Origin: Dasania marina DSM 21967
Lineage (GTDB): Bacteria > Pseudomonadota > Gammaproteobacteria > Pseudomonadales > Dasaniaceae
Reading direction: 5' to 3'
DNA length: 64,000 bases
NCBI RefSeq assembly: GCF_000373485.1
Contig: NZ_KB891577.1
Location: forward strand, 1-64,000
Shown: positions 46,762 through 51,733 of the stretch, piece after piece
Layout: the number at the start of each line of letters is the position of its first letter
Numbering within the stretch: the first letter of the stretch is position 1
The notes under the pieces: model-generated
Databases searched by the model: none
What the model saw: only the letters and a program-made list of their open reading frames with translations
Told to the model about the DNA's origin: nothing
Position numbers and translations under genes: made by a program

Positions 46762-47372
46762 GGAAAAGGCCCGCGCCATTGAGGGTGTGAGCCTGCTGCT
46801 TGTTTGGGTAGATTAATGCGAGGGGGATTGAATAACAAAAGCTTTAGGCTTTTGTTACCCCTGCGGGTCGCCATGGAAGGCTGGCGTTAGCATGCCCCAC
46901 GCAGTGCTTTGTGAATCGGGGCTTAAACTCGATTCCGCCGCTGGCGGCCATTACAAAAAAGGCCCACCCTATTGAGGGTGTGAGGGGTTTTTGGGTTTGG
47001 GTATATTAATTCGAGGCGGATTGAATGATAAAAGCTTTAGGCTTTTATCACCCCTTCGGGGCGCCATGGAAAGCTGGCGTTAGCATGCCCCACGCAGTGC
47101 TTTGGGTATCAAACTTTGCTGTAAGCAAAGTTTGTGAACCGGGGCTTAAACTCAGTTCCGCCGCTGGCGGCCATTACGGAAAAGGTCCGCCCTATTAGGA
47201 ATGTGAGCTGGTTTTGAGTTTGGGTATATTAATTCGAGGCGGATTGAATGATAAAAGCTTTAGGCTTTTATCACCCCTGCGGGGCGCCATGGAAAGCTGG
47301 CGTTCAAACTTTGCTGTAAGCAAAGTTTGTGAACCGGGGCTTAAACTCAGTTCCGCCTCTTGCTACCATTAC
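46762..47372 (-). repeat. Three tandem hairpin-rich units downstream of tRNA-Met (193-223 bp each)
   Basis: Units are at about 46762-46954, 46955-47177 and 47178-47372. Each contains, in + order, a G/C terminator-like stem, then gggtatattaattcgaggcgg (or a variant). The latter contains a degenerate copy of the tRNA 3' T-arm region. An AAAAGC-TTTAG-GCTTTT hairpin, a CCCC-tnc-GGGG hairpin and a CGCCA..TGGCG hairpin follow. Then come gaaYcggggcttaaact, and a CCGCC-gct-GGCGG hairpin in the first two units. Units 2 and 3 also hold an 11-bp hairpin (CAAACTTTGCT). The tRNA CCA end and the unit landmarks are spaced 189, 223 and 193 bp. Hairpins stay paired through compensatory changes between units. 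A short plus-strand reading frame inside unit 3 follows the repeat and is not a gene. Confidence 0.9.
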
Positions 47373-47405
47373 AAAAAAGGCCCACCCTATGGGTGAGCCT
47401 TTTTT
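47373..47405 (-). terminator. Terminator of tRNA-Met
   Basis: The stem GGCTCACCC/GGGTGGGCC with a 3-nt loop is flanked by six A and six T, four bases after the encoded CCA. It is the centre of a longer 36-bp-arm inverted repeat (47352-47426) that takes in the tRNA 3' end. Confidence 0.88.
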
Positions 47406-47409
47406 GTAA

Positions 47410-47486
47410 TGGTAGCAAGAGGCGGATTTGAACCGCCGACCCCATCATTATGAGTGATGTGCTCTAACCAGCTGAGCTACCTTGCC
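47410..47486 (-). tRNA. tRNA-Met (anticodon CAT, elongator type)
   Basis: A 77-nt gene on the minus strand, from GGCAAGG to the encoded CCA. The acceptor arm pairs GGCAAG with CTTGCT (one G-T). The D arm is GCTCAGCTGGTTAGAGC, the anticodon loop is CTCATAA, and the T loop is TTCAAAT. The anticodon-arm sequence ATCACTCATAATGAT is the same as in elongator tRNA-Met of E. coli. A CAT anticodon could also belong to tRNA-Ile2, but the D/anticodon arms favour Met. Confidence 0.95.
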
Positions 47487-51312: not shown

Positions 51313-51405
51313 CGAAACTGCTAGGTTAGAAGTATAACCTTTTGGCCGGTGTGCCGCTCAGTATCTGCAGCGGACTTGTAAAATAGGTGGGTTGAGCTCT
51401 TAACC
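51313..51405. other. Region upstream of prs
   Basis: About 95 bp between the prs start and the tRNA-Gln repeats holds no supported gene. prs is probably transcribed from here or by read-through from ispE and tRNA-Gln. Confidence 0.5.
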
Positions 51406-51674
51406 CTGCTGGCTAGAAGCTAGGCTTCTTTTTCCAACGTCTCACGTCAAAAGCGTGAGTTTTCTAAATATGGCTGGGGCGGCAGGGTGGATTCAAGCCT
51501 TACGGCTTTCAGGGCTAAAGCCCCATCATCTTTGATGATGTCCAAACGCTGTTGCGTTTGTCGAACCTCGTTCGACTCCTGCTGGTTAGAAGTTACACTT
51601 CTTTTCCAGCGTCTCACGCCCCCTTTTATTTCTAAACAGGGTGTGAGCTTTCTAAATATGGCTGGGGCGGCAGG
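51406..51674 (-). repeat. Hairpin-rich repeat zone downstream of tRNA-Gln with a copied tRNA 3' end
   Basis: The last 16 nt of tRNA-Gln plus 10 nt of its 3' flank (51649-51674) recur exactly at 51461-51486, 188 bp away. Both copies are followed on the minus strand by a hairpin built on CTCAC/GTGAG. Next comes a six-bp AGAAGY hairpin whose last pair changes from T-A to C-G between copies. Between the copies stand five consecutive short hairpins: AAGCC-ttac-GGCTT, GGGCT-aa-AGCCC, CATCATC-ttt-GATGATG, CAAACGC-tgtt-GCGTTTG and TCGAAC-ctc-GTTCGA. A reading frame that crosses this zone and the tRNA is not a gene. Confidence 0.9.
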
Positions 51675-51733
51675 ATTCGAACCTGCGAATGCTGAGATCA
51701 AAACCCAGTGCCTTGCCGCTTGGCGACGCCCCA
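51659..51733 (-). tRNA. tRNA-Gln (anticodon TTG)
   Basis: A 75-nt gene on the minus strand, from TGGGGCGTCGCCAAG to the encoded CCA. The acceptor stem TGGGGCG pairs with CGCCCCA, the anticodon loop is TTTTGAT, and the T arm is GCAGG-TTCGAAT-CCTGC. It is 21 bp after ispE on the same strand, as in the Pseudomonas ispE-tRNA(Gln)-prs order. It is probably processed from the lolB-ispE transcript. Confidence 0.96.

Follow-up and report, generated by a model that had tools for sequence, protein, structure and literature searches.

A hairpin array 3' of tRNA-Gln in Dasania marina is, by its sequence and predicted fold, a divergent member of the TLR/RtT class

The array of short hairpins that follows the tRNA-Gln gene in the window (the whole stretch of DNA analyzed here, 64,000 nucleotides from one end of contig NZ_KB891577.1 of Dasania marina DSM 21967) belongs, judged by its sequence and predicted fold, to the known class of tRNA-linked repeats (TLR/RtT), of which it is a divergent member. 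Its anatomy, its specificity for its own tRNA, the conservation of its fold and its presence at other tRNA genes and in relatives are established here, as are the gain and loss of units in E. coli. We consider it probable that the array, as a TLR member, is made together with pre-tRNA-Gln and processed at the copied tRNA 3' end, with its units exchanged by recombination.

Descriptions of TLRs go back to 1978; as of 2021, they were without an established function (PMC8144298). E. coli carries 22 copies at ten loci (PMC8144298, citing Egan and Landy, 1978 and Rudd, 1999), directly 3' of tRNA or rRNA genes, with the 3' 18-19 bp copying the upstream tRNA or 5S rRNA; the repeats are rich in hairpins, number one to five at a locus, at about 150-180 bp, and have had their structural conservation traced within Enterobacteriales (PMC8144298). 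RNAs of the RtT family give Northern signals in A. pleuropneumoniae (PMC4986893); a role of RtT in the stringent response, repeated in that paper, is set aside here, the claim having later been retracted (PMC8144298). That the design of the tRNA-Gln array is unprecedented is not supported, since the TLRs and RtT of E. coli share it.

The host gene lies between ispE and prs on the minus strand, so that the array, at lower coordinates, is on its 3' side. The features of the locus are listed from the tRNA outward (P0 is the closing helix; model R3 is described below):

51659..51733, minus: tRNA-Gln (ttg), host gene of the array (ARAGORN; Rfam tRNA, 58.8 bits)
51649..51674, minus: first copy of the 26-nt repeat, covering the 3' strands of T-stem and acceptor, the CCA and 10 trailer nucleotides (exact match)
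51613..51647, minus: trailer hairpin CTCAC..GTGAG, first copy (fold; no T-tract after it)
51588..51602, minus: hairpin AGAAGT gta ACTTCT, first copy (fold)
51475..51588, minus: complete TLR-type element (model R3, 37.5 bits, E 5.3e-6 over the whole genome)
51578..51582, minus: P0 5' strand GCAGG, complement of the tRNA T-stem 3' strand and of its downstream copy (covaries with the tRNA in relatives)
51560..51576, minus: P1 hairpin GTCGAAC gag GTTCGAC (family core GAGAACC..GGTTCGAC; fold, alignment, model R3)
51544..51559, minus: hairpin H1 AAACGC aaca GCGTTT (C-G to U-A double change in relatives)
51524..51540, minus: hairpin H2 CATCATC aaa GATGATG (double changes at four pairs)
51512..51523, minus: hairpin H3 GGGC ttta GCCC (stem invariant in six sequences)
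51495..51508, minus: hairpin H4 AAGCC gtaa GGCTT (double changes at two pairs)
51461..51486, minus: second copy of the 26-nt repeat, its first 5 nt, CCTGC (51482-51486), being the P0 3' strand (exact match)
51389..51460, minus: shortened second unit with the second CTCAC and AGAAGC hairpins, AGCAGG and a weak terminator-like hairpin, without the hairpin string

The 26-mer CCTGCCGCCCCAGCCATATTTAGAAA is thus present twice at a spacing of exactly 188 bp, confirming that the end of tRNA-Gln and its flank are copied downstream. The original prediction also placed a CTCAC/GTGAG and an AGAAGY hairpin after each copy, and both are there: the second copies lie at 51441-51459 and at 51415-51429, the latter (AGAAGC/GCTTCT) differing from AGAAGT/ACTTCT by a compensatory change of T-A to C-G. 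Its five short hairpins between the copies (51495-51576) are indeed perfect, with loops of 3-4 nt (GAG, AACA, AAA, TTTA, GTAA) rather than 2-4 nt. The hairpin string sits within a split copy of the T-arm (GGTTCGA, the hairpins, then ATCC, acceptor strand and CCA), which makes the stretch between the T-loop and its copy the natural unit. Since no T-tract follows the first trailer hairpin, it is not terminator-like by its sequence, and no terminator-like site was found on the minus strand ahead of the element.

Chance can be ruled out as the origin of the array, both by shuffling the region and by the survey of tRNA flanks with swapped queries described below: in 500 doublet-type shuffles the longest exact direct repeat was at most 12 nt, and the region folds with a z of -6.6 against shuffles.

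The original prediction read the arrays as the product of a general process at tRNA 3' ends and proposed a survey of tRNA 3' flanks for spaced copies of the 3' end. With a query consisting of the 79-nt tRNA end plus trailer and a cut-off at the 99th percentile of swapped queries, unit-length repeats were found in 7 of 41 flanks in the D. marina genome, in 10 of 33 in its sister species and, for two members of the family, in 3 of 38 and in 5 of 27; taken together, this amounts to 25 of 139 flanks against 1.4 expected, with periods mostly of 163-231 bp. The split-T-arm reading, derived from the flanks of every one of the genome's 45 tRNAs, applies equally at Arg-ccg, Arg-acg, Ser-gga, Asp, Leu-caa, the second Met, Phe and Pro-ggg, each element ending in the sequence of its own tRNA. 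When each tRNA's motif, spanning the end of the T-loop, the T-stem and the acceptor, was compared with the motifs of differing tRNAs in the four genomes, it was the best one downstream in 24 of 143 flanks (about 4 expected). The orthologous tRNA-Gln locus carries the element in five relatives (G001, G003, G004, G006 and G009), with at least two full units in the sister species G001, and no element is visible at that locus in three others (G005, G008 and G032). Where the prediction had allowed for other tRNA genes without arrays and for relatives without the repeats, both the arrays and an orthologous tRNA-Gln element were found, which supports the general process.

The fold is conserved along with the position. 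Whether the tRNA T-stem is GCAGG, GAAGG or GAGG, its copy and the P0 strand complementary to it change accordingly. An alignment of six Gln elements has 91% of its cells paired and 19 cells with double changes, as against 6.6 in shuffles and 0-4 once the partners are shifted along; in alignment A5 there are 26 such cells against 5.9 in shuffles.

Several other loci of the D. marina genome have features of their own. The copy at the end of the Arg-acg element (L064 899-1028), CATCCTTC, matches the sister species' tRNA-Arg-acg (CCTTC) but departs from the tRNA that it follows (CCATC), and so appears to preserve a former state of that tRNA. The flank of tRNA-Ser(tga) (L070) has a second copy of trailer and terminator about 163 bp downstream, the element between them having decayed. 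One hairpin string resembling those of the tRNA elements (C11:604183-604298, L077) stands 49 kb from any tRNA and has no tRNA copy, and another (C2:219168-219289, L057 1569-1690) lies 461 nt beyond tRNA-Asp.

Kinship with the E. coli elements was examined with covariance models. The pattern GGATGAGAACC-N(0-10)-GGTTCGAC was scanned exactly over 84,980 species genomes, and the figures that follow are among the matches listed: 138 were in the examined genome and viral loci, 105 of them with a same-strand upstream tRNA (103 at a distance of 300 nt or less). Among these 103, 68 end in a copy of the upstream tRNA matching at 10 or more of 12 positions, against 51 of 1750 in a swapped-tRNA control, and 41 of the 68 copies are identical over the last 18 nt. 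The repeat often takes in trailer and terminator, so that these flank the core on either side, which is the dual-terminator arrangement known from rrnA, rrnB and rrnD (PMC8144298). Model R1, built from 28 of these loci with E. coli left out, matches RtT of E. coli K-12 at 61-66 bits, rrB of rrnB, five elements of the lysT operon, and the orthologous Gln elements (39.4 bits in G003); alone it gave no match to the window's Gln copy.

Model R3 was made from R1-aligned elements of the relatives, E. coli and four other genomes, with no D. marina sequence and without locus L129, where R1, misled by a nearly palindromic Phe element, matches the wrong strand. It matches the Gln element of the window at 37.5 bits and the Met element at 39.2 bits, at 74 nt and 56 nt from the modelled tRNA 3' end and on the same strand, and since it leans on orthologues of the window elements, these matches show kinship, not independence. 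Its best six matches in the whole 4.1-Mb genome are Ser-gga, Arg-acg, the window's Met and Gln, Leu-caa and the second Met, each lying 3' of a tRNA, at a distance of 49-276 nt and on its strand. A MAFFT-only model of the lineage elements (R2) found no base pair, and Rfam RtT (RF00391) found no match in the window at its gathering score (45 bits) or at E<=5; that cut-off was reached at two of six loci tested outside E. coli (L183 and L216).

Set beside the E. coli TLRs, the tRNA-Gln array shows the copied 3' end (16 nt to the CCA exact, plus 10 nt of trailer, with one mismatch directly before the exact 26 nt) and tandem units within the range of one to five, being one full and one shortened unit that ends near 51389 at tRNA-Gln and three units at tRNA-Met. 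In contrast to the E. coli TLRs, the window elements have other hairpins, no GGA loops and an altered P1 junction, the invariant family core GGATGAGAACC being changed to GCAGGAGTCGAAC, and no terminator stands between tRNA-Gln and its element. Rfam RtT (E. coli tyrT/tyrV, RttR) has the same order of P0 with the tRNA copy, P1 GGTTCGA hairpin, hairpin string and tRNA 3'-end copy, at a period of 178 bp as against 188 bp; its tandem GA motif (PMC7657543) fits the GA-GA opposition beside P1 in the core, whereas the window Gln element has Watson-Crick pairs there. The Aggregatibacter sRNA AaHKsRNA22 (RF02902) has four hairpins in the same order and is matched full-length by both tRNA-Leu(caa) units of D. 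marina (L072 1254-1357 and 1554-1652), at 28.8 bits and so below the gathering score of 39.8 bits, suggesting that this Rfam family may belong to the same group.

The second array of the window, at tRNA-Met, has the following parts:

47410..47486, minus: tRNA-Met (cat), host of the sister array
47236..47357, minus: array unit 1 (R3, 39.2 bits, E 1.9e-6 over the whole genome)
47013..47162, minus: array unit 2 (13 bits with R3 alone; 91% identity to unit 1 over the shared stretch)
46820..46944, minus: array unit 3 (R3, 20 bits)

The two arrays had been called unrelated, which is wrong: their architecture is common, a single model matches both, and having the same parts they are one kind of element. 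The Met units copy just 10 nt of the tRNA 3' end (AATCCGCCTC), a partial TLR feature, and a terminator-like hairpin lies directly 3' of tRNA-Met, so these units may be little transcribed. That terminator belongs to an extended dyad (47347-47431, minus) with 41-nt arms that are 93% complementary and perfect over 30 nt, reaching through the trailer into the 3' half of the tRNA.

A duplicated tRNA 3' end is the usual mark of integration, which is what speaks for the array as an att-site scar left at tRNA-Gln by a lost prophage or island. We give this hardly any credence, for the same architecture and conserved core follow many different tRNAs in one genome and relatives keep the element at the orthologous tRNA-Gln locus; the flank survey and the whole-genome R3 matches refute it in the main. 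The sequence between the two copies is non-coding throughout. As had been predicted, no integrase or foreign gene was seen between or beside them, the eight neighbors scanned (hemA, lolB, ispE, prs, rplY, pth, ychF and one pilin-like gene) being housekeeping or pilin-like.

The arrays might also be a neutral by-product of replication, generated by fold-back template switching between the hairpins of the terminator and the T-arm, which would produce both inverted and direct copies of the tRNA 3' end, with repeated snap-back synthesis making the short hairpins. The tRNA-Met terminator dyad, with 30 perfect nucleotides reaching into the 3' half of the tRNA, would fit such an origin, as would similar dyads at Ser-gga and Arg-acg and stems that are nearly perfect (101 mismatches in 2272 stem positions). 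We nevertheless judge it quite improbable, because such a process would leave neither GGATGAGAACC..GGTTCGAC..ATCC and the branch order unchanged from phylum to phylum nor the family restricted to the 3' flanks of tRNA and rRNA genes. The stem mismatches include 27 G-T against 15 A-C (p 0.04), a weak excess that weakly points to selection acting on RNA rather than DNA.

The distribution of these elements is wide. Of the genomes sampled, R1 at E<=0.001 matches 99 of 274 in the class and 47 of 249 in the phylum. Fifty R1 loci were picked without regard to tRNAs, tRNA-Gln being the commonest host (17); of the 46 with enough upstream sequence, 45 have a same-strand upstream tRNA and 43 a copy of that tRNA's positions 59-70 at 10 or more of 12. 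Among the matches listed, the pattern is also found in other Proteobacteria, and in MAGs named Verrucomicrobia, Bacteroidota and a few archaea, with about 20 chance matches expected at uniform base composition and some of the matches resting on single MAG contigs that may be chance or misbinned. We found no earlier report of such breadth in open-licence papers, and it appears to be new. Units also come and go within a species: the tyrT-tyrV junction of E. coli is empty in 2863 genomes and carries the unit in about 1919-2008, the filled form having 176 bp inserted between direct repeats of 19-20 bp.

Such exact presence/absence polymorphism is what one would expect of a self-spreading non-coding DNA element that targets tRNA 3' ends, inserts at the T-loop and restores the tRNA 3' half, with no function as RNA. 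Its direct repeats, running from the T-loop and often through CCA, trailer and terminator, resemble the attachment sites of integrative elements, and similar cores at many isotypes, nearly the same hairpins at different tRNAs within one genome, and fast turnover between D. marina and the sister species G001 all agree with it. On the other hand, there is no integrase among the neighbor genes scanned, a single recombinase would have to accept many tRNAs, and the folded core is conserved across phyla with P0 re-matched to each tRNA; on balance, we regard a purely DNA-level element as unlikely. Carriage by phages or plasmids has no support, as there are no phage copies of note (four viral-contig matches, among those listed, are without a tRNA) and the plasmid matches look like fragments of chromosomes.

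The elements could instead serve as CsrA/RsmA- and Hfq-binding RNAs that titrate CsrA in step with tRNA transcription. Among the pattern matches listed, loops contain 0.69 GGA per element against 0.21 in shuffles, and RrB of E. coli binds CsrA and Hfq in vitro (PMC8144298). Set against this, the 19 TLRs of tRNA operons score below 0.01 for CsrA binding (PMC8144298). All loops of the window Gln element lack GGA, which speaks against extending such a role to that element. Family members also occur in some phyla where, to our knowledge, CsrA is not expected, and we hold the proposal to be very improbable.

We return to a TLR-type element made with its tRNA as the reading we favor. The unit follows the tRNA gene on the same strand as P0, the P1 hairpin, the string of short hairpins, the copy of the tRNA 3' end and the repeated trailer; in it, the 3' strand of P0 repeats the T-stem/acceptor strand of that same tRNA. 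As no terminator-like site precedes the element, transcription of pre-tRNA-Gln would run into it; the tRNA-Met units would need read-through, because a terminator-like hairpin directly follows that tRNA. In E. coli, rrA/B/F lie between two terminators and are made by read-through transcription, processed, and bound by Hfq and CsrA in vitro, and the copied 3' end was proposed by the same authors as a recognition site for RNase E (PMC8144298). By analogy with that proposal for RrB, the D. marina element would fold as predicted with P0 closed by the tRNA copy, and the copied tRNA 3' end would be a processing site that gives a defined 3' end and releases a structured RNA. Units would multiply and vanish by recombination between the direct repeats of the tRNA 3' end.

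TLRs may, as a tentative extension, form one widespread bacterial family (with few archaeal MAG matches) that spreads from tRNA to tRNA, its closing helix rebuilt each time from the 3' half of the target tRNA. The work supplies a large comparative set of TLR-type elements in which the closing helix is rewritten for each tRNA, together with natural pairs of empty and filled alleles at tyrT-tyrV in E. coli, so that the role of the copied tRNA end becomes directly testable.
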